The notes below the pieces were generated by a model that worked only from the letters and a program-made list of their open reading frames with translations, made no database searches and had not been told where the DNA came from. Below are positions 5,365-20,003 of a stretch of DNA of 21,651 nt, piece after piece. Both the position numbers and the translations under genes were made by a program. The stretch comes from a virus: positions 1 through 21,651 of the IMG/VR virus record IMGVR_UViG_3300037245_000253, one strand, 5' to 3'. The number at the start of each line of letters is the position of its first letter. Position 1 is the stretch's first letter.

Positions 5365-7089
5365 CTATTTCATGTTGTGAGGTTCAATTGATACCCTCGT
5401 GTCGTTCGTTGGAACTTTATACCCTTTGCTTCTTGCTTTGGTTGTACTTATCTTTTCAGCTAAAGGACTTCTTACATCTACACTCTTTCCTTTTTTCAGA
5501 TATATAACTCTGTTCCATTTGTGTTTGCATGTTCCGTTTGGGAACGTTTCACTCATTAATCCTCCACCTTTCCACAACCAAATAGAATAAGTATTTACAC
5601 CGTCTAAACCAAATCCAGGGTTAACAGGTTGGTTCTCCATTGCTATAATATCTTCTTTTCTATATATCTTATCGGCTCGCATCATCTTACTGCAAAACTC
5701 TCTCTCTGGAGTTGGGTTACCTGTGTACTTGTATCTAATTACAATATCGTCACTATCCTGTTCGCTCTTTGAATTCGGTCTTGCTGTTCCTGTGGTTGCT
5801 AAATTTATACTTTGTTCAAAATCAAAATCATCATCATAATCTACTGCTTCTTCATAAACTAAATCGTATTGTGTTAAATCTATTTCGTCGCCTAAATCAA
5901 TTAACAGTTCAGCGTTAGATTTTTTTTTTAATCCAACTCTTTCGATAAGTGGTTTTTTTAATTCTTCCGTTTCTACTTCGTCTTTAATTTCTTCGGTATT
6001 ACTAGCGTCAGTGTTTTTAGATAATGGTATAAACTTTAAATCAATTTCAACATCGTAAAATAACATTATTTCTTCTAGAGCGTCTAGTATAAAATCTTGC
6101 TTAGGCTTAATTACTCGTTTAAGTAATTGCTTTTCCATCATATCCATTTCCTCTGCTGTACTGCTGAATCCACTACTTGTAACTAAACCAACTAACGAAG
6201 GGGATGTAACTCTGTGTGCTGTTAAGATTTGCTTCTTACTTTCCTCTGTTAAAAAACTCCATTGTTTATGAGCGTCATTTACTACAATAGGTGTGATTGT
6301 AATTTCTGCATCCCTACCGTTAAATGATAGTACAAATTTACCTGCGTTTGGACTACCTACTAATTTTTCTTTTATCTTTTTTTCGAATGCGTCTTTTTCT
6401 TCTGTGCTCATTCCTTTACCGTCAGGAATGTTAATTATGTACCCAAAAGATAAACCGTTTTTAATATGGCTTAATGCGTAGTTTCCGATTTCCTCCTCAA
6501 CCTCGCAATAAGATAAACAACTTATGTACGTAGGATCTGAAAAGTAAACCTTACCCGCTTGATATGGTTTTAGGTCGTATATTTCAATAGGTTCTTTTGT
6601 AGTTCCGAATGAAGGATAAGATACAGGTTTGTTCTGCCATTGTTTAGCCCAATCTCTACTAAACCAATAGTGTTCTATTTCTCCGTCTTCATTTTCTATA
6701 GAAGGAGCTACTAAGTTTTGTGCCATATGGAACAAATCAGGTCTTAGTTTCTTTCCTTTCTTGTTAACTTTTTGGATTTTAGCGCCATTAAATAACTGGA
6801 AATCATAGATAATTTTACGTAATTCTTTAGGTTTTAGCATATCATTTAAGATTTTTAAACCTTCTGTATTGTCGCTAGTTAATCCCTGTCCATAGATAAG
6901 GTCAGTATATGAAGCGTTAATACTTGCATTTGTCGCGCTTCCTATGTTCCTTTTGATAAGATAATCAAAGAAATCATTGTTTTTTCCGTTTAAAACCCAA
7001 TTTTTTGACTTGTTTTCCACTACATCTGGTCGGATATAGTTGTTTAATTGGATTAATCTTATCTCTGATGTGTTATTTTTGTTACTCAT
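5365..7089 (-). CDS. Portal protein with fused minor-head-type C-terminal module
   Basis: A 574-aa protein. Residues about 1-350 have portal features: YTDLIYGQGL near residue 65, DFQLFNGAKIQ, YYWF..W-rich wing region, and a long helical crown leading to QILTAHRVTSPSLVGL, the motif often seen in Bacteroidota phage portals. The portal is the dodecameric ring at one capsid vertex through which DNA enters and leaves. After an acidic linker (about 360-445), residues about 447-530 read VIRYKYTG...REFCSKMM...YRKEDI...CKHKWNRVIY, which resembles the C-terminal part of Mu gpF/SPP1 gp7-type minor head proteins, with Cys466, Cys521 and His523 as possible metal ligands. A run of ten A on the mRNA strand (5920-5929) lies at codons 387-390. 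The start ATG overlaps the previous stop by eight bases. Confidence 0.82.
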   Translation of the reverse strand: MSNKNNTSEIRLIQLNNYIRPDVVENKSKNWVLNGKNNDFFDYLIKRNIGSATNASINASYTDLIYGQGLTSDNTEGLKILNDMLKPKELRKIIYDFQLFNGAKIQKVNKKGKKLRPDLFHMAQNLVAPSIENEDGEIEHYWFSRDWAKQWQNKPVSYPSFGTTKEPIEIYDLKPYQAGKVYFSDPTYISCLSYCEVEEEIGNYALSHIKNGLSFGYIINIPDGKGMSTEEKDAFEKKIKEKLVGSPNAGKFVLSFNGRDAEITITPIVVNDAHKQWSFLTEESKKQILTAHRVTSPSLVGLVTSSGFSSTAEEMDMMEKQLLKRVIKPKQDFILDALEEIMLFYDVEIDLKFIPLSKNTDASNTEEIKDEVETEELKKPLIERVGLKKKSNAELLIDLGDEIDLTQYDLVYEEAVDYDDDFDFEQSINLATTGTARPNSKSEQDSDDIVIRYKYTGNPTPEREFCSKMMRADKIYRKEDIIAMENQPVNPGFGLDGVNTYSIWLWKGGGLMSETFPNGTCKHKWNRVIYLKKGKSVDVRSPLAEKISTTKARSKGYKVPTNDTRVSIEPHNMK

Positions 7090-7387
7090 AAAAATATAAA
7101 TCCTTAGTTAATCGGTATTCTTGCGTATTTTGGTCTGTTATTAGCAACTTTCCTCTAAATACTATACTATCTTCTTCTAATTTAATCTGGTATTTCTGTT
7201 TATTCTCGAAAGTATAGTCGAAATTTAACGTAAATAAACCATCTACAATCGTATAAGTGTTAGTGACTACGGTTTTCAACTTAGTACTTTCGTTATATAA
7301 TTCAAATGTTACCGCTCCATCTGGGTAATACCTAGGGATTAGTGTAATTGAATGGCTTGTATCGTTAAAATCTAATACTTTACTCAT
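7082..7387 (-). CDS. Small beta-rich virion-associated protein upstream of portal
   Basis: A 101-aa protein from the ATG at 7387 (MSKVLDFNDTSHS). The frame is open to a GTG at 7429 (115 aa), but the ATG gives a cleaner N-terminus and leaves more room for control sequences. The content suggests a beta-sandwich: ITLIPRYYPDGAVTFELYNESTKL, FTLNFDYTFENKQKYQIKLEE, IVFRGKLLITDQ. No characterised family is recognised. It overlaps the portal start by eight bases (ATGAGTAA), so translational coupling with the portal is likely. Proteins of this size and motif order often accompany portal or tail genes in Bacteroidota phages, but a role as head-tail joining or tail protein is only inferred from position. 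Confidence 0.6.
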   Translation of the reverse strand: MSKVLDFNDTSHSITLIPRYYPDGAVTFELYNESTKLKTVVTNTYTIVDGLFTLNFDYTFENKQKYQIKLEEDSIVFRGKLLITDQNTQEYRLTKDLYFYE

Positions 7388-7419
7388 ACCTTTTAAACGT
7401 TTATCTTTAAATATTGTTA

Positions 7420-7447
7420 TTGACACCACTTATTAGTTATATATTAT
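7420..7447 (+). promoter_or_regulatory. Possible promoter for the plus-strand gene
   Basis: TTGACA at 7420-7425 is followed, after 17 bases counted from TTG, by TATATTAT at 7440-7447. This partly matches the flavobacterial pattern TTG-N17-TANNTTTG and also contains an E. coli-like -35 hexamer. It sits 28 bases before the ATG at 7476, a reasonable leader length. The downstream element is imperfect (last bases TTAT instead of TTTG), so the call is tentative. Confidence 0.35.
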
Positions 7448-7475
7448 GTATATTGCAGTCTAAAACATAATAAAA

Positions 7476-7724
7476 ATGAAAAAAGTAAAGAAGAAAGTTG
7501 AATTAAATCTTCAATTAGAAGAAGTTAATATTGAAAATTACGGATGTGGAAATTTTGATAATACTATGAAGTATAAATATAGTGTTACTGATGAGTTTGT
7601 AGACCTTGAAACATTAGAGTGTTTTGTAGAAGTTGAAGAGCTAGAAACATTAAAAGAATGGCTAGATAAAAACAAGATGCCGAAAAAAGTGTTGTTAGAT
7701 TGGTTAATTAAAAACTATAAGTAA
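7476..7724 (+). CDS. Lone plus-strand accessory gene (moron candidate), unknown function
   Basis: An 82-aa protein, rich in Lys and Glu, with no signal peptide or membrane segment. It begins MKKVKKKVELNLQLEEV, has a middle stretch with two nearby Cys/aromatic positions (NYGCGNF, LECFVEV) and ends in a probable amphipathic helix (ELETLKEWLDKNKMPKKVL). No family is recognised. It is the only convincing gene on the plus strand, placed between the tube-like gene and the portal module. A near-perfect terminator begins one base after its stop codon and a possible promoter lies upstream, so it is an independent transcription unit inside a late operon. The ATG follows an A-rich leader (ACATAATAAAA). 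This form is that of a moron, a small accessory gene acquired by a phage and often expressed apart from lytic genes. The function is unknown. Confidence 0.75.
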   Translation: MKKVKKKVELNLQLEEVNIENYGCGNFDNTMKYKYSVTDEFVDLETLECFVEVEELETLKEWLDKNKMPKKVLLDWLIKNYK

Positions 7725-7725
7725 T

Positions 7726-7762
7726 AAAAAACCCCTTATCAATTACGATAAGGGGTTTTTTT
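7726..7762. terminator. Strong bidirectional intrinsic terminator
   Basis: A perfect 15-bp inverted repeat, 7726-7740 with 7747-7761, around a six-base loop (AATTAC). The core is CCCCTTATC/GATAAGGGG. On the plus strand it ends in seven T (7756-7762) and follows the stop of the 82-aa gene; on the minus strand it ends in six T and follows the tube-like gene stop by about 25 bases. It can therefore end transcripts from both sides, and would reduce readthrough from the capsid genes into the portal genes. Confidence 0.93.
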
Positions 7763-7786
7763 CTAAAACAAATTATGAAAAAACTA

Positions 7787-8305
7787 CTATGCTACTAACG
7801 CTTGAAATGCCGTTAATGTTGCTGAGTCTAATTTAGGGCTTAAACTTCCCTCTGTACTTACTCCAGTTAATGTGAATCCATTTAAATCAGTCTTCACTCC
7901 ACCTGTTGCGGAATCAATTGTAAAATCAATACCGTCTGTAATTCCTAGTGCATGTGCTACTCCGTTACGATCTAATACAACCGCTTGAGGGTAACCTTTA
8001 GCTAGTAAATTCATTTCGGCACTAGTTGTTGCATCAATCTTTTTTAGAATCGCTGTAAGGGTCTGTGTGTTTACTGTTGTTGATGTGTTACGGTCTGAAA
8101 CCATATTTTCAACTAAAGTATTACCGTCCCCTTCTAATTCAAATGCGAACACAACTGTTAACGCTACGTTAATTGCTGTTGCTTCCCCTGCTAGAATTGT
8201 AAAAGGATCTGCTATAAAGTTGTATAAGTAAAGAATAGAATTACCTCCTAAACTAGACTTGCAAACTCTTTCTCTTCCTGATGTTATATCACTACTACAA
8301 GACAT
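7787..8305 (-). CDS. Tail tube-like structural protein, first paralogue
   Basis: A 172-aa protein from the ATG at 8305 (MSCSSDITSGRERVCKSSLGG). The frame extends to a TTG at 8335, but the ATG follows AAAAAAT, the usual A-rich start context here. It contains CKSSLGG, YLYNF, several beta strands, VVLDRNGVAHALG and LNGFTLTG, with a small alanine-rich C-terminus. The same motif order appears in the 174-aa protein at 4356-4880, so the two are paralogues. Position directly after the major capsid gene and the beta-rich content suggest a major virion protein; I favour the tail tube. A capsid decoration protein is an alternative. The terminator lies just downstream, so it ends the capsid transcription segment. 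Confidence 0.55.
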   Translation of the reverse strand: MSCSSDITSGRERVCKSSLGGNSILYLYNFIADPFTILAGEATAINVALTVVFAFELEGDGNTLVENMVSDRNTSTTVNTQTLTAILKKIDATTSAEMNLLAKGYPQAVVLDRNGVAHALGITDGIDFTIDSATGGVKTDLNGFTLTGVSTEGSLSPKLDSATLTAFQALVA

Positions 8306-8324
8306 ATTTTTTAAGGTTTTTATA

Positions 8325-8351
8325 AAGGGTGTCAATTGTTATAACACCCTT
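8325..8351. other. Intercistronic hairpin between capsid and tube-like genes
   Basis: AAGGGTGT at 8325-8332 pairs with ACACCCTT at 8344-8351 across an 11-base loop, in the leader between the capsid stop (8366) and the tube-like start (8305). There is no T-run after it on either strand, so it is not a normal terminator. It may be an RNA stability or processing element between two highly expressed genes. Confidence 0.4.
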
Positions 8352-8365
8352 ATGTTAATTAATTT

Positions 8366-9397
8366 CTATCCTCCGTAAAGAGTTATGTATCTTTGGTTAA
8401 CTGGAAATGTTTCAGCAAACATAATAGATTTCCAAATTTGGAAGTCTGCTAAATTAGCACCTCTTTGTTGCTCAAATGATTGTGCATCGTTTGTCTTGTC
8501 TGTTAAGAACAATAAAAACTCTGGATCACACATAATTCTAAATCCAATCATAGGAACAAAAATAACTTCATACCCGTTATATGTCCAATTACCACCCACT
8601 TCTACAAAGTCAGGGTTTACAGTTGTAGCCCCTTTATTTGCTGAAACCATTAAAGCTTTATCCCCTAATGGAGCATAAATTTTATGTAAGTTTTCGCTAG
8701 AATCTGGAACCGCTGCAAAATGAGTTTCGTAAATCTTTAAATATTCATCTGCTATATTTCCAGACGTTAATGTTATAGGTGTTAACACTTTAATGTAATC
8801 ACCTAGTCCTGCTCCAGGCGATGCCTTTGCATTTGACGCATTGTGAATCAATGTTGCAGGAATAGAATTAAACTGATTAGAAGGCATTGCTGCAACTAAT
8901 GTTTGACCGTAAGCAGTTAAACTACCTTGACCCGCTCCAGGTGTTAATGCTGCAACTAAAGCTTTTTGTGCTGTTGTTGCTCCGTTCCAAATAGCTTTAT
9001 CTAAAGAAGTTCCAATTGCTGGAATCCTATTAGCTACTACTTTTCTATCATACTCATCAGAAATATAATTAGCTGCTCCTGCTGCTATTGATTTTTCAAA
9101 TCTTGTACCGTTCAATTGACTATAAAGAACTTTACCGTCGTATTGAAACTTGTTTAAGTTTACGACAGTGGAAAAAGTATCATTTGTAGTTCCTGCCCCT
9201 GTTAAATCAACTCCATCAACATCGTATACTTGTTGAATTACCGAGGTAGTTGTTTCCGTAACCTCTGTGTTTGATTTATGGTTTTCATCAATATTAATGA
9301 TGTTATCTCTTAAAGTTCTTGCTTCTGCGTACACATCTGCGAAGATTTCTTCAACTATTGATTGAGGGTACTTTGTACCTGTGAAATTATCTGCCAT
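8366..9397 (-). CDS. Major capsid protein, HK97-like fold
   Basis: A 343-aa protein with the length and composition of a HK97-fold shell subunit. The N-terminal region (SIVEEIFADVYAEARTLRDNI) is helical and could act as a short delta domain, followed by VDLTGAGTTNDTF and a spine-helix region. The C-terminal part reads GNWTYNGYEVIFVPMIGFRIMCDPEFLLFLTDKTNDAQSF...VNQRYITLYGG, the pattern of capsid C-termini with the late axial-domain strands. The gene follows a prohead protease/scaffold gene and a 52-aa gene, the usual context. Its ATG has a very A-rich leader (AATAAAAAAATAACAAA), in keeping with high expression. Assignment is from fold-like features and context, with no direct alignment run. 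Confidence 0.85.
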   Translation of the reverse strand: MADNFTGTKYPQSIVEEIFADVYAEARTLRDNIINIDENHKSNTEVTETTTSVIQQVYDVDGVDLTGAGTTNDTFSTVVNLNKFQYDGKVLYSQLNGTRFEKSIAAGAANYISDEYDRKVVANRIPAIGTSLDKAIWNGATTAQKALVAALTPGAGQGSLTAYGQTLVAAMPSNQFNSIPATLIHNASNAKASPGAGLGDYIKVLTPITLTSGNIADEYLKIYETHFAAVPDSSENLHKIYAPLGDKALMVSANKGATTVNPDFVEVGGNWTYNGYEVIFVPMIGFRIMCDPEFLLFLTDKTNDAQSFEQQRGANLADFQIWKSIMFAETFPVNQRYITLYGG

Positions 9398-9401
9398 TTT
9401 G

Positions 9402-9560
9402 TTATTTTTTTATTGATTTAATATCATTTTCGAGCCATTCAATTTGCTCTTTTGTTAATTTATTTTCGCAATATTCTGAGATTGTTTTTTTACCGACAGC
9501 TTTTAAAAACTGTACATAAGTAACACCGCTTTTGAAAGGGTTTAAAAATTTACCTGCCAT
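9402..9560 (-). CDS. 52-aa protein between protease/scaffold and capsid genes
   Basis: A short ORF of 52 codons, ATG at 9560 to TAA at 9402, that fills the gap between the protease and capsid genes. The protein starts MAGKFLNPFKSGVTYVQFLKAVG, then KKTISEYCENKLTKEQIEWLENDI and a lysine-rich end. It begins two bases after the protease stop and ends four bases before the capsid ATG, so all three are in one tight string. The amphipathic pattern and Phe/Tyr content suggest a small folded helical protein. I recall similar short proteins beside capsid genes in Bacteroidota phages, but their role is not known to me. A capsid assembly or cement role is speculation. Confidence 0.7.
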   Translation of the reverse strand: MAGKFLNPFKSGVTYVQFLKAVGKKTISEYCENKLTKEQIEWLENDIKSIKK

Positions 9561-9562
9561 AA

Positions 9563-10183
9563 TTAGTTGTTTTCTCTGTTGTACTCCATCTTTTCCCTAT
9601 TACTTAGCTTAGAATAATCAACTTGTGTTGGAGCTGTCTTAATTGGTTTAGCTGCAGGCTGTTTTTGTAACTCTAAAACTTCTGCTTTTAAAGTTTCATT
9701 CTCTTTCTTTAAAGAATCATTCTCTTTTTTAAAGTCTGCTTTTAATTCTGTTCTTAAATCTGTAATCTTTAAATCTACATTCTTGTCATATTTAATTAGA
9801 ATAGATTGTATAGCTTTATCAAGGGCATCGGCTACATTTTCATCACTTTCTAAATTTTCCTCAATTGGTGCTTCATCAACTGGAGCTGCTTCTTTTACTT
9901 CAGCGGCAACGCCTACCTCAGTAACTACTAAAATTAAACCACCTTCTAGTTCATATTCACCAACAGGTAAAGGTACATTTCCGCCTTCTGCATCAACTGC
10001 ACTAACTGTTGACCCCGCTTGTAATTGTTCGCCATCGAACATAATTTCCACAGTACCATCTGCACTGTTTACACTACCTAGTTTTATTTCTTCGTCTTTT
10101 TTCTCCTCTTCTTTGTTAAGGTTTAAAGCCAAAGCAATTTTTTCTGGTAGCTCTTTTATCATTTCTACTAATTTCGCACTCAT
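9563..10183 (-). CDS. Possible nested scaffold protein from internal start in the protease gene
   Basis: An in-frame ATG at 10183 (Met189 of the long protein) lies just after the protease domain and is preceded by AAAAAGCGATAAAAAA, which matches the A-rich start context seen at other genes here. A product of 206 aa would contain the small beta domain and coiled coil but no protease. This would parallel lambda C/Nu3, where a scaffold is made from an internal start. The evidence is position and leader only; A-rich sequence is common in this genome. Confidence 0.35.
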   Translation of the reverse strand: MSAKLVEMIKELPEKIALALNLNKEEEKKDEEIKLGSVNSADGTVEIMFDGEQLQAGSTVSAVDAEGGNVPLPVGEYELEGGLILVVTEVGVAAEVKEAAPVDEAPIEENLESDENVADALDKAIQSILIKYDKNVDLKITDLRTELKADFKKENDSLKKENETLKAEVLELQKQPAAKPIKTAPTQVDYSKLSNREKMEYNRENN

Positions 10184-10747
10184 TTTTTTATCGCTTTTTA
10201 AGTTAATTTCTTCTAAATTTACAAATGCATCAATTGAAAAACCTTGTATGTTTCCGTCTAACGCGTCTTGGTATATTTCTTTATTGTCACACTTCATTTT
10301 AACAACCCATGCACCCTCTACAATATCTTCTTTAGGCAACTTATAAGCGTTTGCGGTATCATTCTTAGGATCTTTAACAAGCCAAGCCTCAACAATACTA
10401 ACGCCACTTATTTCTTCACCGTGCTCTACTGATGAGTTTTTTTGGTAACCCATTTGAATGAAGTTATGTGCTACATCTTTTACTGTTTCTTTCGGGAATG
10501 TTATGTTAAATTCTTGCCCCCCTTGATTTCTGTAAATCTCTTTATCTGGAATTAAAGCAACACCTAAAAGAGTAAATTCTTTTTCGTCAATTTCTGCTAA
10601 CTTCATTTCAAACCCTTTCAAGTTTGTTTCTTTATTGTCTTTATTTAATGCAATAAACATAGACTCCATCGCGGGATCATGAACCAAAGAAATGCCATAC
10701 ACTCCTTTGTTTTTTAATTTATCGAAAAGTACTTTATATGTCTTCAT
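9563..10747 (-). CDS. XkdF-like prohead serine protease with scaffold-like C-terminus
   Basis: A 394-aa protein. Residues 1-180 are the protease domain: VYGISLVHDPAMES, LLGVALIPDKEIYR, then SSVEHG with His109, SIVEAWLVKDP with Glu120, and IQGFSIDAFV with Ser171, the expected catalytic elements of XkdF/U35-type prohead proteases, which cleave scaffold and capsid N-termini during maturation. Residues about 225-285 form a small beta domain (ADGTVEIMFDGEQL...GGLILVVTEVGV). Residues about 325-362 are a clear coiled coil (LRTELKADFKKENDSLKKEN) and the end is polar, as expected of a scaffold. Protease-scaffold fusion is common. Met189 could be an internal start. The gene follows the tape measure gene after a 40-base gap. 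Confidence 0.8.
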   Translation of the reverse strand: MKTYKVLFDKLKNKGVYGISLVHDPAMESMFIALNKDNKETNLKGFEMKLAEIDEKEFTLLGVALIPDKEIYRNQGGQEFNITFPKETVKDVAHNFIQMGYQKNSSVEHGEEISGVSIVEAWLVKDPKNDTANAYKLPKEDIVEGAWVVKMKCDNKEIYQDALDGNIQGFSIDAFVNLEEINLKSDKKMSAKLVEMIKELPEKIALALNLNKEEEKKDEEIKLGSVNSADGTVEIMFDGEQLQAGSTVSAVDAEGGNVPLPVGEYELEGGLILVVTEVGVAAEVKEAAPVDEAPIEENLESDENVADALDKAIQSILIKYDKNVDLKITDLRTELKADFKKENDSLKKENETLKAEVLELQKQPAAKPIKTAPTQVDYSKLSNREKMEYNRENN

Positions 10748-10787
10748 AAATATATCTTATATTATTAACGGTTTACATTGATTTTTG

Positions 10788-12584
10788 TTATAATGCTGCA
10801 TTGTCTACCGCGTTTCTGTCTAGCTCTTGCGCTGATGTTACTTTGCTGCTTACTACAAATACTTCTTGCGGTTGTGCGTTTTGTCCGGCTATGTTACTTG
10901 CAATTTGATTTCCTTGTGTTCCTTGCACTAAATTAAACGATGGCGCGTTTTGACCTCCTCCGTTTGGAATATCAGCTTTACCGCTGCTTAAACTCTGTCC
11001 TGTTTCATCTGTTCCTAAAATCTTTTTAACGTTCAGTAATCCACTGACTCCAATTACTGCTGCGTTAGCAAATTTTAAAGCTGTTCCAAATGGTTCTGGA
11101 ATAGTACTAACAGCTGCCAATGCCGATGTAACACCTTGGTATGTATTCATAAGTGTTTGTGCTGCTGCTGCTCCTTTTGCTAACTTACTACCTTTCTTAG
11201 CTAACAGCCCGACTAAATTAAATACTTGGTTTGCTATTTCTATTTTTGCGTCTGCCTCTAATTGTGCAACTACCTTTTTTTCTTCTGATGCTGATTTTTC
11301 GTTAGCTAATATTTGATTGTCAATTTCTTGTTTTCTAGTAAGAAATTCTTGTTCTGCGTCAATCCTTGCCTGTGTACCTTCTTGAAATAATTCTCTTTTA
11401 CGTTCTAGGTCTTCTGAAATTATTTCGTTTTCTTCGTCTAATCTTTCTCTTTGTTTTTCTAGTTTTAATACTGCGTTTTCCTCTTGCTCTTCTTCAAATG
11501 CTAATTGTGCTATTTGTCTTTCTTTTTCCGAATCGCTTATAGAATTATTTAACTCTATCTCTTCTTTTTGTAAAGCTATCCTGTTAACTATCTGTTCACT
11601 TCTAAACCCTTCTATTTGCGCTAATATTCCTATTTTATTTGTTTGCGAATCTATTAAAGCTATTCTGTTTTCGTCAGATTTATTTAGATTAAAAGCGTTC
11701 CTTGCTGCTGTTATTTGTAAATCAGCCTGTCTTAGCATTGCTTTTTCTTGCTTCTCTAGAACTTTACCTAACTCATCATTTGCTATCTTTCTTTCTTTAA
11801 TAGATTTATTTTCTGCGTCTCTTATTTGTCTTTGCTTTTCTGCTGCAATATCAAATTTTTCTACTAATTGAGCCTGTACTGCTGCTCCTATTAAAGCCGC
11901 TTTTGATGCTGCCGTTATGGCTGCTGCTGCTTCAAAAGTATTCTTAGCATATCCTGTAATTGCGTCCGCACCTTTTATTACTACGTCTGTAACTTTATCT
12001 ACTACGTTGTCTACTCCTGTAAGTACGTCAACCATCTCCTTACCTGCATTCTTAATCTCGTCAAAAGCTTCACTAAATTTACCTTCTTTGAATTTATTAA
12101 ATGCTTTTCTAAGGAATCCAAGTACTTCTAATGCTGATTCAAATCTCTCAATTATGTTCTTTTTAATTCCATCACCAACACTTTTAAATGTTAGTTCAGA
12201 AAAGAACTTTTTCATACCTTCAAATGCGGGCATAAAATTATCAGATACAAAAGAAAACAAGTCATTAAAAGCAATCTCTAGACTAGTCATTACGTTACTA
12301 AAAACGTCCATTACTTTTTGGTTCTTACCTAGTATTTCAGCAAGCTTAGCAAATAAAGCAACAACAATACCTATACCAATAGCTTTAAATGCCGTACCTA
12401 TAGCTTTAAACCCTTTAGCCGCACCACTAGCTCCTTTTTTAGTTTTATCTAATGAGGATTTTGTCGAGTCACCTAATTTATCAACGCTTTTATCAGTCTT
12501 TTTTATAGCATCGTCAACATCTTGAATACTTTTAACAGCATCAGTACTATCACCTTTTATTATAATTTCCTTCTCAATTGCCAT
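10788..12584 (-). CDS. Tape measure protein
   Basis: A 598-aa protein with the usual tape measure build. The N-terminal 55 residues are polar and helical (STDAVKSIQDVDDAIKK). A hydrophobic, Gly/Ala-rich stretch follows at about 55-86 (FKAIGIGIVVALFAKLAEIL) and another near 205-240. A very long charged coiled coil runs from about 240 to 455 (for example LEKQRERLDEENEIISEDLE). A second hydrophobic block is at about 475-522 (YQGVTSALAAVSTIPEPFG), with a polar Gln/Asn-rich end. Tape measure proteins set tail length and enter the host envelope during DNA ejection; at about 1.5 angstrom per residue the tail would be near 90 nm. The start overlaps a 50-aa gene by 25 bases. Confidence 0.85.
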   Translation of the reverse strand: MAIEKEIIIKGDSTDAVKSIQDVDDAIKKTDKSVDKLGDSTKSSLDKTKKGASGAAKGFKAIGTAFKAIGIGIVVALFAKLAEILGKNQKVMDVFSNVMTSLEIAFNDLFSFVSDNFMPAFEGMKKFFSELTFKSVGDGIKKNIIERFESALEVLGFLRKAFNKFKEGKFSEAFDEIKNAGKEMVDVLTGVDNVVDKVTDVVIKGADAITGYAKNTFEAAAAITAASKAALIGAAVQAQLVEKFDIAAEKQRQIRDAENKSIKERKIANDELGKVLEKQEKAMLRQADLQITAARNAFNLNKSDENRIALIDSQTNKIGILAQIEGFRSEQIVNRIALQKEEIELNNSISDSEKERQIAQLAFEEEQEENAVLKLEKQRERLDEENEIISEDLERKRELFQEGTQARIDAEQEFLTRKQEIDNQILANEKSASEEKKVVAQLEADAKIEIANQVFNLVGLLAKKGSKLAKGAAAAQTLMNTYQGVTSALAAVSTIPEPFGTALKFANAAVIGVSGLLNVKKILGTDETGQSLSSGKADIPNGGGQNAPSFNLVQGTQGNQIASNIAGQNAQPQEVFVVSSKVTSAQELDRNAVDNAAL

Positions 12585-12712
12585 GCTCGTTTCAATTTAA
12601 TTTTAAAACCCTTCCAGGTTGATACCATTTCGTTTTTACCTTTAGCAATATCAATTGTATTACTGCATCCGTAAAACTCTCGGCTTCTTAATATGTTGAT
12701 TACTTCTATCAT
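12560..12712 (-). CDS. 50-aa basic protein before the tape measure gene
   Basis: A 50-aa protein from the ATG at 12712, which shares a base with the stop of the previous gene (TAATG). The frame is open to a GTG at 12754, but that start is deep inside the upstream gene. The N-terminal half (MIEVINILRSREFYGCSN) is followed by WKGFKIKLKRAWQLRRKL, a strongly basic end. It overlaps the tape measure start by 25 bases. No family is recognised. It is small, coupled on both sides and probably translated; a role in tail assembly is a guess from position. Confidence 0.55.
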   Translation of the reverse strand: MIEVINILRSREFYGCSNTIDIAKGKNEMVSTWKGFKIKLKRAWQLRRKL

Positions 12713-13602
12713 TACGGTATAGCTATTGTTACTGTTTCTGTTTGAGTTGCCCACACCTTCATTGTGAATGATGAAAAATATTGCTGATTGGTTGGGTCTA
12801 GAAATAAATCAATAAATATTCCGTCTGTTGTTCCGTTTAATGACTCATTTATATTACCTATACGTTTTCTGTAACTTGCGTCTACAAACTCACCAGACGC
12901 ATGATTTAACGCAGCTACTTGTTCTATTTCTACTGTACTTCCTGTTACTTTAACTGTATATAAGTAAGTGTCCATTACGGCTGCTGTATTAGATATAATA
13001 TAGTTTGTGTCAAATGAATTTAACGTTATGTCTGGAGTGTCATTAAATTGCTCAAATGATAATTGAGCGAATCTAATTTCTGTTAAATCCAAATCAGTAG
13101 TGCTAAATGTTAATTGTCCTTTCCACCATTTAGAACTTAAATAAGCGTTTGAATATCCATGTATAGTATTTCCGTTTGAGTCTGTAGAACTTGTGTTTAT
13201 TGTTAATCCGTCTATAGATAGAATTTCCGTGTCAGCGGGTGTTTCTACTCCTGTATTTCTGTCTACGCTCGTTCCTGAAATTGTAATGCTTCCTGTAAGG
13301 TCTGAACCTGCTAAAACTGCCGCCATAACTTTAGATATACCACCGTCTCCGATTATGGGAGTTCCTGAGTTTAATATAATTCCATCCTCTGAATTATTAA
13401 TAAGTAAAGAACCATGAATACTGTTTAAGTCTGTTTTATTGTTTAACGGGAAATCAAAAGGAATTAAAACAGGATGTGATGTTGTTATTTGTCCAGTGTA
13501 TAACTCATCTGTATTACTATTTACCTTTATCATTGCATCTCTTAACGTGTCTCCTAACCCGTCGTTTGGTGCTGCTCCTACGTTTATTGTTTGCTTAGCC
13601 AT
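12712..13602 (-). CDS. Tail structural protein with fibre-type N-terminal motif
   Basis: A 296-aa protein. The first 35 residues, INVGAAPNDGLGDTLRDA followed by MIKVNSNTDELY, are the motif found at the start of many phage tail fibre and virion proteins (VG-x-x-PNDG-x-GD-x-LR-x-A-x-x-K-x-N-x-N), usually used to attach to the virion. The rest is Ser/Thr/Asn-rich and predicted to be beta-strand (ITISGTSVDR; TDLDLTEIRFAQLSFEQF), with no catalytic motif. It is encoded between a 792-aa tail protein, whose end it overlaps by eight bases, and the 50-aa gene. I infer a minor tail or baseplate component, perhaps a short fibre. Confidence 0.6.
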   Translation of the reverse strand: MAKQTINVGAAPNDGLGDTLRDAMIKVNSNTDELYTGQITTSHPVLIPFDFPLNNKTDLNSIHGSLLINNSEDGIILNSGTPIIGDGGISKVMAAVLAGSDLTGSITISGTSVDRNTGVETPADTEILSIDGLTINTSSTDSNGNTIHGYSNAYLSSKWWKGQLTFSTTDLDLTEIRFAQLSFEQFNDTPDITLNSFDTNYIISNTAAVMDTYLYTVKVTGSTVEIEQVAALNHASGEFVDASYRKRIGNINESLNGTTDGIFIDLFLDPTNQQYFSSFTMKVWATQTETVTIAIP

Positions 13603-15973
13603 TATCTACTGTTATTATATTGTTATCTACCGTTATAGTCGTGTTATCTACTGTTATATTACCGCCTGTCTGATTTATATAAACTCTAATTGTTTTTGTT
13701 GCTTCTTCATTTGTGATATCAACAAACATATCTCTAATTAATCCTGTTTCGTTTAGCGCTATTGAAAAATAAACGTTGTTTAAATTACTAGATACAGAAA
13801 TCCAATCAACATCAAACCCGTTATCTACTTTATCAAACGTAGCATTGCCTAAATTAGTTACATAGATACTTTGTATTTGTGCTTTAAAGTCAACATAAAT
13901 AGAGTCAGTCGAAGGTGTAAATCCTCCTATAACTTCATCAAAAGAACTGATTAAATTTAATTCGGCTTCTCCTGTTAATAGATTTAAGTTATAGTTACTT
14001 ATTCTATAATAGTTATCCCTTATTCTAAATATGTCATTCAGCTCTAATTTAGATAGAATCCTAAACGGCAACTTTGCGTTAAATCTATAATCTCTTCTCT
14101 TTACATTAAATAAGCTATCTATAAAATCCTTGTGATAATTTTTATATAGTGTATTTGTTATTTTTACGTTTGTCCATTCGCTAAACTCCTCACTAAATAC
14201 CGTGCTAAAATTAACGTTCTCTAATGTCATTGTGTGACTAGGAATGTTTATTGATCCGTTTAATAATGTTCTATTGCTTAAATCGTCTATAAATGCCAAC
14301 TCTGTAGTATCTAAAGATGTGTTTATGTTATAAAATATATGCGGTTTAGGGTTAGCAGGCTCTAAATCTTCTTTTATAACTGCCCCATATTGAATGTTTA
14401 CAATTCCGTTAGTGAATTGGTCTGTCAATCTCTCGTATACAATCTGTTCAAATGGTAGCTCGTAATCTAATGAATCACCGTCTAAAGGTTTTCCGTTACT
14501 GTCTTTTATCTCGTTCTCTTCATCTCCGTATCCTTTGCCTGTATTCTCTTCAAATTGTTTATTTAAGATAGTTGTAGGTTCCTTGAACGTGAAATTAATC
14601 TCGTTTAATAGTTTACCTCTATTTACATCATGGCTAGTATTATCAACGTATCTTGTAATGTCAATAAGTTCTCCTTCTGAATAGAAATCAACTAAAGTAT
14701 TAACATATAAATTATCAAAGTCCGTAGGGATAACAACTAGTTTATCCTTCTTAAAAATACCCTTTAGAAAATCAATTACTTTCATCTTTGGTAATTCCTC
14801 TGAAACTACAAACCTACTAGTTATTGTATTCTCACTAGCGAACGTGTTAAATGTTCCTCCAGAATCATTATGAAACCTTCTCTCTTGCCTAGCTCTAAAC
14901 TCATATTTAAACTCTTGCGTAGACGACACCTCGTAATATACGTTCCAAGTAAATGCACCCTCTCCTGTTCCACTTACGCTTAATTCCTCTTTAGCTAAAT
15001 TAACGGTTCCTACTCCGTTAGTTTCTGTCGAGGATTCATCATTTTTAAAGAACGTTACTTTCCAATCTACATTTTCATATCCTGCGCTAGGGGTTATTGT
15101 TGACCATAAATCAAAGTGTATATCATCCCCCGACGCTGCTGTATTCTGAACATCGAACGTTCCTATATTAGTTGTTAAGTTAAAAAAATCTGTGTCTCCT
15201 GAATCAAAATCTACTATCTGAGAATCACCTCCTGGAGTCACGCTCGAATCTGGATTTAGCCACATGAACAAATTTAAAAACTCAGCTCTACCGAAATAGT
15301 CACGGCTAAATGTAAGTTCATACTTTACTTCAATAGCTTTTATAATTTCTATTAATCGTAAACTAGGTCTTAAATCATTCCATGTTATCCCGTTGTCACC
15401 CAATCCGTTTCCGTATGCAATATTTGCTAACTTTGCAGTTATTGTTTTATCGCTAGGATCAGTATTATAGTAGTACCGCTTCTTAACAAACAGATTGTAA
15501 ATTATATTAGCATTAAACAAAGATCCTATTAAACCGCTTTTTACATTATTACTTGTATAGTCGTGGTCGAATTCTGTAAGGTCTAAATCTGATAACTCAT
15601 CTTTTCCTACTGCATCTTTTATACTTAATAGGTTCCCCCAAAATTGTATGGTATAACTAGATGGCTTGTTATTTTTTACGCTTACTTTCGATAGCCTGTA
15701 TTTCCCTAACTTATAAACAAAACCATTCAACAAAATACCACCCTCTACTTTTATACGTGCATCAAATGAGTTATCAATATCAGCGTTATAATAGTGCTTG
15801 AACTTTCTATTGTTTTTGTTCGAGGCGGGTACCGTGAAATCTTTAGTAAACTCAGTGGTGTTCTTTTCGATGTCCTCAATATCAGTAACAGACGAATTAA
15901 GCTCTATGTTTTCATCTTCATATAAATCTAATAAGTCTGTCGGATCGTTCCCTATGTATAAACCTGTTATCAT
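13595..15973 (-). CDS. Large tail/baseplate protein
   Basis: A 792-aa protein. The N-terminal region reads DLLDLYEDENIELNSSVTDI, then KNTTEFTKDFTVPASNKNNRKF, then FVYKLGKYRLSKVSVKNN, a beta-rich pattern found in conserved structural genes of Bacteroidota siphoviruses. The middle has a helical element (LPKMKVIDFLKGIFKKDKL) and later FNAKLPFRILSKLELNDIFRI. No enzyme motif is visible. Size, position after the 349-aa protein and before a fibre-type gene suggest a distal tail or tail-associated (Dit/Tal-like) component. The last 22 residues contain three ITVDN units encoded by a 21-base tandem repeat. Start ATG overlaps the upstream stop as ATGA. Confidence 0.6.
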   Translation of the reverse strand: MITGLYIGNDPTDLLDLYEDENIELNSSVTDIEDIEKNTTEFTKDFTVPASNKNNRKFKHYYNADIDNSFDARIKVEGGILLNGFVYKLGKYRLSKVSVKNNKPSSYTIQFWGNLLSIKDAVGKDELSDLDLTEFDHDYTSNNVKSGLIGSLFNANIIYNLFVKKRYYYNTDPSDKTITAKLANIAYGNGLGDNGITWNDLRPSLRLIEIIKAIEVKYELTFSRDYFGRAEFLNLFMWLNPDSSVTPGGDSQIVDFDSGDTDFFNLTTNIGTFDVQNTAASGDDIHFDLWSTITPSAGYENVDWKVTFFKNDESSTETNGVGTVNLAKEELSVSGTGEGAFTWNVYYEVSSTQEFKYEFRARQERRFHNDSGGTFNTFASENTITSRFVVSEELPKMKVIDFLKGIFKKDKLVVIPTDFDNLYVNTLVDFYSEGELIDITRYVDNTSHDVNRGKLLNEINFTFKEPTTILNKQFEENTGKGYGDEENEIKDSNGKPLDGDSLDYELPFEQIVYERLTDQFTNGIVNIQYGAVIKEDLEPANPKPHIFYNINTSLDTTELAFIDDLSNRTLLNGSINIPSHTMTLENVNFSTVFSEEFSEWTNVKITNTLYKNYHKDFIDSLFNVKRRDYRFNAKLPFRILSKLELNDIFRIRDNYYRISNYNLNLLTGEAELNLISSFDEVIGGFTPSTDSIYVDFKAQIQSIYVTNLGNATFDKVDNGFDVDWISVSSNLNNVYFSIALNETGLIRDMFVDITNEEATKTIRVYINQTGGNITVDNTTITVDNNIITVDNG
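13602..13657. repeat. Three-unit 21-base tandem repeat at the end of the 792-aa gene
   Basis: TTATCTACYGTTAT begins at 13602, 13623 and 13644, a strict 21-base period. On the coding (minus) strand this gives three ITVDN units spaced by seven residues (TVDNTTI, TVDNNII, TVDNG). Being a multiple of three, copy number can change without a frameshift. It overlaps the start of the following gene at 13602. Confidence 0.8.
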
Positions 15974-17019
15974 ATATCGTTGATCTCGTTAAACGAGTAT
16001 TTAAACTCTATGGTATAATTAATTAATTTATCGTTCACCTGTGATTTATATTCAATTCCTTTGCTGCCTATATTTAAAGGAGTCATTATTGAACCATCAT
16101 ATTGCCAAACTTTATCAGATAATAGTAATTGCTTAAACGTATCGTTGTTTTCTTCGTCTACAAAACCGCTACTCGCTACAAAACTACCAGTTCCGTTCTT
16201 GTTATAGTCTACTATTTGGTGGAATCCTGCTAGTGGCTGACCTCCTGATCCGTGGTATGTTTCTCCTGTGATACTTATATTGTCTTTTCGCTCCTTAAAG
16301 AAGGTTAAAACCTGCTGTGTTCCCTCTTTATTCTTGAAATGTATGTCGATTGGTGTGTATCTGTACTCTTTTTTAAGGAATAAACTGATCGTAACACCGT
16401 TATAAATCACCTCAATCAGGTTATCTACACTAGTTTCTGAACATTGTACCCATAAATAGCTAACAACCTCGTTAGAATTTAACGAAATAGGCACGTTTAT
16501 ATCTTCGTTTATCTCATTATCTGGATATGATATTACAGTTACGTTCGTTCCGTCACCAATTAAAGGAATAATAAATGAACTATCCGCATTTACCTTAAAC
16601 TCCGTACCTGATAACAGTATTTTATTAGCCGGTACGGTTGCGTTTTCTCCGTCCATTCCGTAATTATATCCACTTATAGCAGTGTCAATAACTAATTGAA
16701 CTACACCGCTTGAAACGTCGCTTATAAACCCCTCGTAATAAGCAGACACCCATACTTGATTGACCCCATTAATTAAACTTGTGGTTGTTGCAGTCTGCGA
16801 TTCAAACTCGATAAAGTCATTTATTAGATTAGATATATTTACTTTGTCTGTGGTAATGCTTTGAGTTGGGTTTTGACGTGTTAGTGGATAACTTGCAGTT
16901 GCAGGCTCAGCGCTTTGTAGTCCTGTCCAAACGTATAATGTAAATATGTAATTGTCAAATGGTACACCTCCATCTGATAACGGTACGGTTAAGTAATATG
17001 GTGAAAGTGTTTTTATCAT
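15970..17019 (-). CDS. Tail structural protein, unknown family
   Basis: A 349-aa protein with mostly beta-strand content. It starts MIKTLSPYYLTVPLSDGGVPFDNYIFTLYVW, has NQVWVSAYYEGF, and near the end LAGFHQIVDYN..., KQLLLSDKVWQYDGS and INYTIEFKYSF. The opening (P-Y-Y-L-T-V, Y-x-F-x-L-Y-V-W) suggests an early beta-sandwich domain. No characterised family can be named with confidence. It lies between the gp10-like protein and the large 792-aa tail protein, with spacing of two bases and an ATGA overlap, so it belongs to the tail module. A distal tail or upper baseplate role is inferred from neighbours only. Confidence 0.6.
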   Translation of the reverse strand: MIKTLSPYYLTVPLSDGGVPFDNYIFTLYVWTGLQSAEPATASYPLTRQNPTQSITTDKVNISNLINDFIEFESQTATTTSLINGVNQVWVSAYYEGFISDVSSGVVQLVIDTAISGYNYGMDGENATVPANKILLSGTEFKVNADSSFIIPLIGDGTNVTVISYPDNEINEDINVPISLNSNEVVSYLWVQCSETSVDNLIEVIYNGVTISLFLKKEYRYTPIDIHFKNKEGTQQVLTFFKERKDNISITGETYHGSGGQPLAGFHQIVDYNKNGTGSFVASSGFVDEENNDTFKQLLLSDKVWQYDGSIMTPLNIGSKGIEYKSQVNDKLINYTIEFKYSFNEINDI

Positions 17020-17021
17020 GG

Positions 17022-17552
17022 TTAATTATTTAATGCGTGTTCTAATAAGTTATCTAAATCAAGTCCAAATGCTTCTACAACATCGTCCGCTAGTTTGTCG
17101 AATCCTAACTCGAAAGGTCGTGTAAAAAAGTTAGTCGTTTCTAATCCTGTATGATAAACTGAATTAGCTATTGCGAACTGTAAACTTTTACGACTGATAA
17201 ACTGACCGCTTGCGCTTCTTGGCGCTATTCCTTTGCGAACTACCCAACCATTAAAAGCTGATGCAGGTGGTCGTTTATTTCTGTACTTGAATTTACTGTT
17301 TGTTACTCTTTTCTTTTTCCATTGCTCACCGTTTGCTTTAGTTCCTCCTACACCTTTCACTCCTGCATCTACAAACTTACCGTAGTCCTCCATAGAGAAC
17401 GAGAACGTAAAAGAATTCTTATGCTTGGTAAACTTATAACCAATAGAATTATAAAGCTCCTTAGAAGCGTTCTTATCCTTCTTAGTTAAATTACTCCTAG
17501 ACTGTTGTACTAGGAATTTACCAAACTTATTAAACTCTTTTTCTACATGCAT
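17022..17552 (-). CDS. HK97 gp10-like tail completion protein
   Basis: A 176-aa protein from the ATG at 17552 (MHVEKEFNKFGKFLVQQSRSNL), which overlaps the upstream stop by 10 bases. The frame is open to a TTG at 17600, giving 192 aa. The pattern is that of HK97 gp10/neck proteins: an N-terminal helix, ELYNSIGYKF, FSFSMEDYGKFVDAGVKGVGG, and a basic middle (GEQWKKKRVTNSKFKYRNKRPP). A late TRPFELGFDKLADDVVEAFG helix closes the protein. Such proteins join head and tail or complete the upper tail. It follows the tail-terminator candidate, a pairing common in siphovirus maps, although here both come after the chaperone gene. Confidence 0.7.
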   Translation of the reverse strand: MHVEKEFNKFGKFLVQQSRSNLTKKDKNASKELYNSIGYKFTKHKNSFTFSFSMEDYGKFVDAGVKGVGGTKANGEQWKKKRVTNSKFKYRNKRPPASAFNGWVVRKGIAPRSASGQFISRKSLQFAIANSVYHTGLETTNFFTRPFELGFDKLADDVVEAFGLDLDNLLEHALNN

Positions 17553-18001
17553 AAACTTATTTCTGTATTTGGAACCTCTACTGTAAATGTCATAATCCAA
17601 CCGTCAGTTATTTTAGCTCCTGTATAAGTTTGCGGATCTGATGTTGCTGCACTTGCTGTTATGTTATTTTTTTTAAAGTCCCTGAACATATTAAGCCATA
17701 AACGATTTAAAGTGTTTAAAGTTTCATTCATATTATCAACTTCATTATCCTGCTTCCAGAACCTATCCTCAACTATTTCTTTGTTTATATCTCTATTAGC
17801 AAAACAACCTATCTGCACATCAAACGTCACTACGGACTCATTAGGAAAACCTGCAGCTCCAACTTGGATATGTAGTAATGTATGCAACTGTCCTTTATCT
17901 AAGTCCATTTTACTAAAGTCTCCTTGTGTAATTGTATTTACAAAAGGGTCTTCGTCTCCTAGTAGCCAAAAGTAGTTCAGTAATTGCGTGTAAATGTTCA
18001 T
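17543..18001 (-). CDS. Tail terminator-like protein
   Basis: A 152-aa protein starting MNIYTQLLNYFWLLGDEDPFVNTITQGDFSKMDLDK, with HTLLHIQVGAAGFPNESVVTFDVQIGCFA, a helix NEVDNMNETLNTLNRLWLNMF and a final strand GWIMTFTVEV. The alternation of beta strands with one long central helix is the alpha/beta build of tail terminator or minor tail (gpU-like) proteins that cap the tube. Pairing with the gp10-like gene supports this. The ATG shares one base with the stop of the frameshifted chaperone extension (TAATG), which is further evidence that the extension is translated. Family assignment is inference from fold-like pattern and context. Confidence 0.5.
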   Translation of the reverse strand: MNIYTQLLNYFWLLGDEDPFVNTITQGDFSKMDLDKGQLHTLLHIQVGAAGFPNESVVTFDVQIGCFANRDINKEIVEDRFWKQDNEVDNMNETLNTLNRLWLNMFRDFKKNNITASAATSDPQTYTGAKITDGWIMTFTVEVPNTEISLCM

Positions 18002-18767
18002 TATAATTCTATTGTGTTATTACCTTTCCTAATGTTATTTTTTAACTTAGCTGTGTCTATCCTTGCTGCTAAAAAGTTGTGTACAAAATGTACATTCATG
18101 TTCTCTACTTCTTTTATCTTTGTTATGTCTCCGATTCCTTCCTCGGTTGTATTGGTTAGACTTAGTATAGTTGCGTACCATCCCCATTTTTCAAAGTAGT
18201 CTAATGCGTTATTGCCCTCACTTGTTCCTCCTCCGTATATCTCTGGATAGCTGTCTCTAAGTCGTTCGATAAACTCAAAAAAAAACCCAAGGCACCGTTT
18301 ACAATATTCAAAGGCATTTGTTTAAATAGTTCTTTTCGTGATGCTGTTCCGTTGTAATCTTCTATCGTGTAATTGCCGAATGCATCCTCACCATTAATCG
18401 GTCTAAATAATACCGACATTGTTTTGTTTAACTCCTCTTCTTTGTCTCCGTACTCTTTAAGGTCTCCTAATTCTGCAACGGTCATATTATCAAAGTTCGG
18501 GATAAAACCGTACTCTATACCTTGCAAAGTGAACCTATTCACGAACGGCACATCGTTGTTAAGTGCCAAGTCAATTTGTTTTATAATATCTTCGTAGTCG
18601 GTCTGCTGCATGTTAGCAACCTTCTGAAATGCTATCCCTGTAAAGATTTCAATCTTACGCTTGTTGAAATCCAACTCGTTTAAGTCGGTTCTCTCAGTCA
18701 GTTTATAGTAGCGTTGGAATTGCTCTAATGTAACCTCTGATATGTTCTCTGGTAAAATGACCTTCAT
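18001..18767 (-). CDS. Tail assembly chaperone, long form made by -1 ribosomal frameshift
   Basis: The zero-frame gene ends at 18201, but a -1 slip on a T9 run (18277-18285) opens 91 further codons to a TAA at 18001, giving about 255 aa. The extension begins EFIERLRDSYPEIYGGG and includes YFEKWGWYATILSL and VHFVHNFLAARID. It has no ATG, GTG or TTG near its beginning (the first ATG is at 18099), and the -1 frame is closed by a stop at 18324 just upstream of the slip site, so independent translation is unlikely. WGWY-type C-terminal modules are known to me from tail chaperones of Bacteroidota phages. This is the equivalent of lambda G/GT and its relatives, where the long form binds the tape measure protein. 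Its stop overlaps the next ATG as TAATG. Confidence 0.85.
18201..18767 (-). CDS. Tail assembly chaperone, short (zero-frame) form
   Basis: A 188-aa protein starting MKVILPENISEVTLEQFQRYYKLTERTD, with a mixed helical fold (FNKRKIEIFTGIAF; MTVAELGDLKEYGDKEEELNKTM) and a hydrophobic stretch LFKQMPLNIVNGALGFFLSL near the slip site. The 0-frame C-terminus after the slip is short and charged (SNDLETAIQRYTEEEQ). In tailed phages the short chaperone is made in excess over the long frameshifted form, and both help tail tube proteins assemble around the tape measure. Here it lies directly after the large terminase gene, far from the tape measure gene, which is unusual. The ATG at 18767 is preceded by a 14-base palindrome. 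Confidence 0.8.
   Translation of the reverse strand: MKVILPENISEVTLEQFQRYYKLTERTDLNELDFNKRKIEIFTGIAFQKVANMQQTDYEDIIKQIDLALNNDVPFVNRFTLQGIEYGFIPNFDNMTVAELGDLKEYGDKEEELNKTMSVLFRPINGEDAFGNYTIEDYNGTASRKELFKQMPLNIVNGALGFFLSLSNDLETAIQRYTEEEQVRAITH
18277..18285 (-). other. Slippery site for programmed -1 frameshifting
   Basis: On the mRNA strand the zero-frame codons are GGT TTT TTT TTG, giving two overlapping heptamers of the X-XXY-YYZ type, T-TTT-TTT and T-TTT-TTG. Re-pairing after a one-base backward slip keeps all T-T-T pairs at two or three positions. After the slip the new codons are GAG TTT ATC and the frame stays open for 91 codons. No clear downstream hairpin was found by eye; a stimulatory element may be absent or a pseudoknot. 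Confidence 0.85.
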
Positions 18768-18771
18768 GTAA

Positions 18772-18785
18772 TTAAAACGTTTTAA
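18772..18785. promoter_or_regulatory. 14-base palindrome upstream of the chaperone gene
   Basis: TTAAAACGTTTTAA is a perfect palindrome four bases upstream of the chaperone ATG, in the 33-base gap after the large terminase stop. It could be a protein-binding site or a weak RNA hairpin near the ribosome site. In AT-rich DNA such palindromes also arise by chance. Confidence 0.3.
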
Positions 18786-18800
18786 ATTGTTGATTGTTAT

Positions 18801-20003
18801 TTATCTTATTTCTATTCCGTAACTACCTAGTAAGTGATGTTCAACGTTATATCTAAATCCATCTATTGCGTGGTTCCAATCATCGACATAAAGTTTACTT
18901 CCTTTGTCTGCGTAGACATAGTTGTTTAACTCCTTGCCTATATTTATACTGTTTGGTTCAACTATTAATTTGTACTCAAGTAATAAAGTAACCCCTACCT
19001 CAATTAAGCCTTTCTTGTGTTGCTGTATATTGCAACCTCGACTATATAAATCATCAACCAATCTAGGATCAACCTCTGATATTATTAGTTTATTACCAAT
19101 CTTTGCGAGTATTAATTTAGCTAGGTCGTCAACCTTTAATCTATTTTTGTAGATGTGTTCTTTTAGGTATATAATCTTCTTAGATTTATCAATTGCAACC
19201 TCAGTTAACGTGTCAGGATCAACACTAAAACCGAAATCCATTCCGCAAGATGTTTGTAAACCGTCTGGATTAAACTCTCCAAACTCCCAATTTTCAAACA
19301 CAACTCCTTCCTGCTTATCTAGCCATCCCCCCATTATTTTATGCTTGTACTTTTTAGGGTTGTTTATTCTTATGTTCTCAATCTGTTTTAAATAACTCTT
19401 ACTAAGGTTTTCTTTGTTATCTAAGTAGGTTGAATGTATGTAGCACACATCATCTTTAATGCCGTTAAACCCGCCCTCTACACCTCGTTGCTCAAAGAAT
19501 CGTTTGTATATCCAATGCTCCTTGGTTGTCGGGTTAAGTATTAAAATTATCCTGTTCTTAATTCCTTTTTGACGTATAGATAAATCGATAGTATCAAATC
19601 TATCTTCGCTTTGTTCCTCTTCGCATTCATCATAAACCCATGTGCTAACTCCTTGTAATGATTTAAGGTTTGCAGTTTGGTTTCCTGCACTCGTTTTAAT
19701 ACCGCTGAATATTATATCTGATAATGTTGAGGTGTTGACTACTTCCGTTTTGTTTATATTAAATATACTATCTAGTCCTAGCAAACTAATCTTCTCCAAG
19801 AACTCAGGAATTATTGATAGGTGAGCAGACTTCATTGTAAAACGAGTAAACAGTATTCTGAACCCTTTCGCCATTGTAAGCAAGGTTAGAAATACTGTTA
19901 CTGCGAATGACTTACCAGAACCACGACCGCCTGTAATTATGAAGTATCTACAATCAGCAGTAAAAAGGTTGTTATATTTAGAATTAAGATCCAGACTTAA
20001 CAA
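18801..20003 (-). CDS. Terminase large subunit (PBSX/phage_terminase_2 type)
   Basis: A 400-aa DNA packaging motor. The ATPase domain has Walker A GGRGSGKS at residues 25-32, Walker B WVYDE with Asp125 and Glu126, and the coupling motif ILNPT at 155-159. The C-terminal nuclease domain shows GMDFG with Asp256, SEVDPR with Asp312, and DDWNHAIDGFRY with Asp375 and Asp381, the RNase H-like metal-binding acids. It drives DNA into the portal and cuts concatemers. No ATG exists near the beginning; the best start is TTG at 20003, which overlaps the small-subunit gene by 20 bases, so translation is probably coupled. The length is a little short for the family but all motifs are present. Confidence 0.95.
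   Translation of the reverse strand: MLSLDLNSKYNNLFTADCRYFIITGGRGSGKSFAVTVFLTLLTMAKGFRILFTRFTMKSAHLSIIPEFLEKISLLGLDSIFNINKTEVVNTSTLSDIIFSGIKTSAGNQTANLKSLQGVSTWVYDECEEEQSEDRFDTIDLSIRQKGIKNRIILILNPTTKEHWIYKRFFEQRGVEGGFNGIKDDVCYIHSTYLDNKENLSKSYLKQIENIRINNPKKYKHKIMGGWLDKQEGVVFENWEFGEFNPDGLQTSCGMDFGFSVDPDTLTEVAIDKSKKIIYLKEHIYKNRLKVDDLAKLILAKIGNKLIISEVDPRLVDDLYSRGCNIQQHKKGLIEVGVTLLLEYKLIVEPNSINIGKELNNYVYADKGSKLYVDDWNHAIDGFRYNVEHHLLGSYGIEIR

Follow-up and report, generated by a model that had tools for sequence, protein, structure and literature searches.

Two reading frames of a probable phage tail assembly chaperone gene are predicted to be joined at a run of T's conserved in length

How two overlapping reading frames may come to be joined into one protein is the question raised by a gene in IMG/VR record IMGVR_UViG_3300037245_000253, of which we analyzed positions 1 to 21,651 (21,651 nucleotides; hereafter, the window). 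The zero-frame gene (18201..18767, minus strand) begins with an ATG at 18767 and runs for 188 codons to a TAG at 18203-18201, predicting a short product like gpG. Close to its end lie nine consecutive T's (T9; 18277..18285, minus strand) in the context GGT TTT TTT TTG, containing the in-frame heptamers T_TTT_TTT and T_TTT_TTG. A preliminary description had read this site as a programmed -1 frameshift in a tail assembly chaperone gene. Its account of the gene, the run and both heptamers was confirmed, and a further heptamer that it did not list, G_GGT_TTT, is also present. The -1 frame is shut upstream of T9 by a TAA at 18324-18322, and from T9 it stays open for 94 codons to a TAA at 18003-18001 (18001..18285, minus strand), encoding a candidate GT-like C-terminal module (FFFEFIERL...KWGWY...IEL). 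The 91 further codons originally counted are correct for a slip on the second heptamer, and a slip on the first would give 92. An open frame of this kind lies well beyond chance, as only about 0.1% of shuffled extensions stay open. Scanned for ATG, GTG and TTG, the -1 stretch yields a single ATG, at 18099 and 32 codons from its end, bearing out the remark that the extension lacks a usable start near its beginning. The stop of the extension and the ATG that starts the following gene (17543..18001, minus strand, 152 aa) overlap as TAATG, as had also been described.

To determine how widely this arrangement occurs, we collected relatives from both sides of the run. The zero-frame protein as query found 80 loci in IMG/VR, a profile search found 577 confirmed relatives, of which 80 were kept, and a codon scan for the EYGFIPN motif, which ignored the run itself, added more. 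Together, the relatives of the conserved N-terminal domain (N-domain; residues 1-163) comprise 213 distinct sites, falling into 64 clusters below 70% amino acid identity. Searches from the extension side gave 89 and 74 distinct sites, sets that in part overlap the N-domain set. All 213 N-domain relatives carry a T run and an open -1 extension at the same place, with T9 at 190 sites, T10 at 20 and T11 at three, and the extension-side sites likewise have at least nine T's and the -1 relation in 89 of 89 and 74 of 74 cases. Of six hits without the run, four are contigs whose sequence stops short of the site and two are unrelated proteins. We found no fused or broken frames among the 213, 89 and 74 sites. 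Two observations named beforehand as able to overturn the frameshift, relatives that interrupt the -1 extension with stops and run lengths of 8 or 10 T that merge the frames, were thus encountered in none of the relatives found. T9 is also found in Nonlabens phages P12024L and P12024S, both of them sequenced isolates, whose GenBank annotation as two separate hypothetical genes illustrates how ordinary ORF calling hides the pair. The conservation in all relatives found indicates that the frame change is programmed and that the two frames form one functional pair. In L030 and its relatives the zero frame continues for 84 codons after the run and outlasts the -1 extension, giving two long, overlapping frames.

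We next compared selection on the two frames in 53 disjoint pairs of relatives. Past the zero-frame stop, substitutions at -1 codon positions 1, 2 and 3 number 87, 56 and 269, and synonymous changes outnumber nonsynonymous ones in the extension 217 to 74; the -1 extension evolves under purifying selection. Conservation across the overlap had been proposed as a check on the frameshift, and it divides between the frames: the -1 frame is constrained there (283 synonymous to 195 nonsynonymous), but the zero frame is not (171 to 361). The last 25 zero-frame codons past T9 are little conserved, and across relatives the zero-frame tail has anywhere from 17 to 85 residues beyond the run. Given this selection pattern and the variable tail, the functional units look like the N-domain, up to its terminal FF, and the -1 module, with the zero-frame tail a by-product.

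What is conserved at the junction itself bears on how the frames are joined. Counting T's before, within and after the two Phe codons (F162 and F163), the clusters show the layouts 2+6+1, 1+6+2, 3+6+1, 2+6+2, 1+6+3, 1+6+4 and 2+6+3. In every layout the flanking T's sum to at least three, the total never falls below nine, and all three codon phases occur. The layout 1+6+1, with eight T's and a good heptamer intact, was found in no cluster against an expectation of 5.8 clusters (P about 4e-7 under independence of the clusters, a value that overstates significance given their shared ancestry), and the N-domain tree requires about 12 changes of layout. F162 and F163 are both encoded by TTT in 64 of 64 clusters, and the third base of F163 is T in 188 of 188 sequences; a control conserved phenylalanine, F88, is TTT in 45 of the 64 clusters and TTC in 19, a split that takes at least 17 changes on that tree. 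Conservation of a heptamer alone, for which seven nucleotides suffice and the last base is free, is thus not the pattern here, since the third base of F163 is always T and the run is never shorter than nine. Instead, the homopolymer is conserved as a length and not as in-frame codons, as is characteristic of programmed transcriptional realignment.

The preservation of run length rather than of an X_XXY_YYZ heptamer points to transcriptional slippage, acting alone or with ribosomal slippage. Our favored reading is that this is a G/GT-type tail chaperone gene whose frame switch occurs mostly through slippage of RNA polymerase on T9, in phages probably infecting Bacteroidota, and we give it a probability of roughly 0.6. 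On nine T's the polymerase's RNA:DNA hybrid of 8-10 bp would consist wholly of rU:dA and could re-pair one base out of register, so that some of the mRNAs would gain one U, and ribosomes would read these straight into the -1 frame. The short product would stop 25 codons after T9, and the long product would gain a helical module of about 91 residues. By analogy with lambda, the N-domain may coat the tape measure protein while the extension recruits tail tube subunits, in which case the slip rate would set the ratio of the two products. We also find it somewhat more likely than not that a whole large group of tailed phages sets its G/GT chaperone ratio by polymerase slippage on a conserved run of at least nine T's, in place of the ribosomal frameshift that serves this purpose in other tailed phages.

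The use of long runs elsewhere in these phages was also compared with expectation. Relative to synonymous shuffles of related loci (1.8 Mb), coding runs of A outside the slip gene occur at 0.73 of expectation for A8 and at 0.32, 0.09 and 0.05 for A9, A10 and A11 or longer. This step between eight and nine matches the published slippage length, nine, at which runs of this kind are avoided in many bacterial genomes (PMC1088944). Likewise, a first-order Markov model predicts about 240 other T or A runs of at least nine over the two strands of 1.84 Mb, and about 58-69 are present. The avoidance of A runs counts in favor of polymerase slippage at T9, although some of this depletion may stem from replication slippage.

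An ordinary -1 ribosomal frameshift, the mechanism implied by the preliminary description, would have tRNA-Phe slip on U_UUU_UUU or U_UUU_UUG as in P2 E/E' and lambda G/GT, with the additional T's serving as more slip sites or simply dictated by the amino acids. We regard this as possible and rather unlikely as the whole explanation. It has precedent, as tail chaperones of the lambda type are ribosomal in the reviewed literature (PMC5009743) and the annotation of P2 E/E' records a -1 translational frameshift, and every run contains the in-frame heptamer T_TTT_TTT, which is unavoidable in any T9. Near T9 we found no conserved RNA structure either up- or downstream (mean z near 0, energies like those of shuffled sequence), nor any mean folding excess within 95 nt downstream across the 64 clusters, in a folding-energy comparison confined to pseudoknot-free RNA structure, a result that fits polymerase slippage better; stimulators are unnecessary in low-efficiency cases (PMC5009743). 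Against a purely ribosomal mechanism stand the disuse of the eight-T layout and the absence of TTC at F163. U_UUU_UUC is an efficient ribosomal shifter in E. coli, with TTC as shifty or more so (PMC4066793), and in 48 clusters the T to C change at F163 would leave the amino acids of both frames unchanged. The claim of a programmed frame change stands, and the heptamer mechanism it carried is doubtful, the run being kept as a length in any codon phase. Because T9 always holds an in-frame T_TTT_TTT, both mechanisms may act; we infer that polymerase slippage is the main route, to which ribosomal slipping may add.

Other explanations fare worse against the relatives. Phase variation at the DNA level, in which replication slippage would alter run length and switch a fused protein on and off within the phage population, could draw on the ready mutation of homopolymers of nine and on the range of lengths (9-11) among relatives, but it is very improbable given that no contig among the 213, 89 and 74 sites is fused and that every length variant keeps the -1 relation. 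It is just as improbable that the extension is a separate small gene expressed by re-initiation or coupling. This is how P12024L/S are annotated, where an ATG overlapping the zero-frame stop was taken as the start of gp41, yet -1 conservation begins at the T run itself, with its invariant FF, well before that ATG, and the window's -1 stretch offers no start besides the late ATG noted above. Homopolymers are error-prone in some sequencing methods, which might suggest a sequencing error or a decayed gene; this, the least likely reading of all, was ruled out for practical purposes, since hundreds of contigs and the two sequenced isolates share this arrangement and the extension is under purifying selection.

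What the joined protein would do is suggested by several lines of similarity. Its two-product architecture, the tape measure gene downstream and weak remote matches make a tail assembly chaperone the best reading of the slip gene product, and a likely one. PF10109 (Phage_TAC_7), the chaperone family for the P2/Mu/HK97 group, weakly matches three of the 64 cluster members (best E 0.0024), and phrog_166 (tail protein), which also picks up P2 gpE, weakly matches ten (best 2e-4). An AlphaFold model of residues 1-163 has a pLDDT of 95, and its residues 1-70 align weakly with HK97 gp13 (2ob9; Z 2.8), in the part where the phrog_166 match of relative L136 falls (residues 11-73). The extension is modeled as helical with moderate confidence (pLDDT 77). 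Matches in BFVD are mostly unnamed phage proteins, with one weak match named tail assembly chaperone. Comparison by hhalign with P2 E, HK97 gp13 and Mu gp41 gave nothing, Foldseek of the N-domain against the PDB gave nothing below E 1, sequence profiles found no convincing match among solved structures, and the extension model had no match in the PDB. The chaperone identity first put forward is accordingly probable, through the PF10109, phrog_166 and HK97 gp13 matches, rather than proven.

The order of the surrounding genes is unusual. Just upstream of the slip gene lies the large terminase subunit (18801..20003, minus strand; PF04466 E 4e-35, phrog_3717). A tape-measure-like protein of 598 aa (10788..12584, minus strand; phrog_9483 E 4e-11 and phrog_1538, tail length tape measure protein), the presumed partner of the chaperone, is encoded downstream on the same strand with six ORFs between. 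The slip gene thus stands beside the terminase, an unusual place, and away from the customary, if not strictly defining, chaperone position, which is immediately ahead of the tape measure gene. Across 5365-20003 of the window, the large terminase is separated from the capsid and portal genes by genes of tail type, and the tape measure gene lies upstream of both the major capsid candidate and the portal. Within the portal gene, the coding strand holds an A10 (5920-5929, Lys-Lys-Lys), one of the few A/T runs of nine or more outside the chaperone gene in these phages; both other frames close shortly after it. As to the host, we infer Bacteroidota from the Nonlabens isolates and from one Flavobacteriales bin holding a relative; among Bacteroidota genomes, one of 395 carried the gene.

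Placed beside lambda G/GT, HK97 gp13/14 and P2 E/E', the locus resembles them in predicting, here from the genes alone, a short product and a longer one with a C-terminal -1 module near the end of the first ORF, in belonging to a tailed phage with a same-direction tape measure gene downstream, and in the weak similarity by HMM and fold of its first ~70 residues. Unlike these chaperones, it has a slip site that is a long pure run of T's rather than a heptamer, and it adjoins the large terminase, separated from the tape measure gene by six ORFs; it shares no close sequence similarity with them; its N-domain is nearly twice the size of P2 gpE and carries its own EYGFIPN...RP signature. In the conserved homopolymer of about nine A or T joining two frames, it resembles Thermus dnaX (A9), Shigella spa13/mxiE and IS elements (runs of 8-9 A/T), which, unlike this phage gene, are cellular, secretion or IS genes. 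Throughout the reviewed literature the G/GT design uses ribosomal -1, -2 or +1 shifts (PMC5009743). In the open-access literature searched, we found no phage tail gene among cases of programmed transcriptional realignment, no paper giving transcriptional slippage as the mechanism of a tail chaperone, none on a frameshift in this gene family, and nothing on chaperone frameshifts in Flavobacterium or Bacteroides phages.

The G/GT design itself is well known; what appears to be new is a large, unrecognized group of frameshifted chaperones in which the slip site is kept as a homopolymer length. All 64 cluster members match phrog_32199 and 13 of the 64 extensions match phrog_38404. These PHROGs derive from the same genes, the P12024L/S pair, and are catalogued as if unrelated, each without a known function and with the frameshift unannotated; if our reading is correct, the two would become a single gene for which a function is likely, and annotation would be corrected in many environmental phage genomes. 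It would also mean that the protein ratio that governs tail assembly in lambda is set in this phage group by RNA polymerase instead of the ribosome, paralleling dnaX in Thermus versus E. coli.

Beyond this group, two BFVD entries, A0A516L611 (258 aa) and A0A6J5MY57 (244 aa), each resemble both the N-domain model and the extension model, suggesting that in-frame fused versions may exist in more distant phages. Flavobacterium phage 6H gp10 (L278:10048-10927 together with the gap after it, the gene being identified by its length) is N-domain-like by structure (BFVD R9VW65, of the same length) and is followed by an unannotated gap of ~300 nt with a long -1-frame stretch ending in DEEAAYKKLEKK and a stop. 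T9 is absent from the 6H locus, which has only T_TTT_TTC and then a -1 stop, so another form of recoding or a separate gene may serve there.
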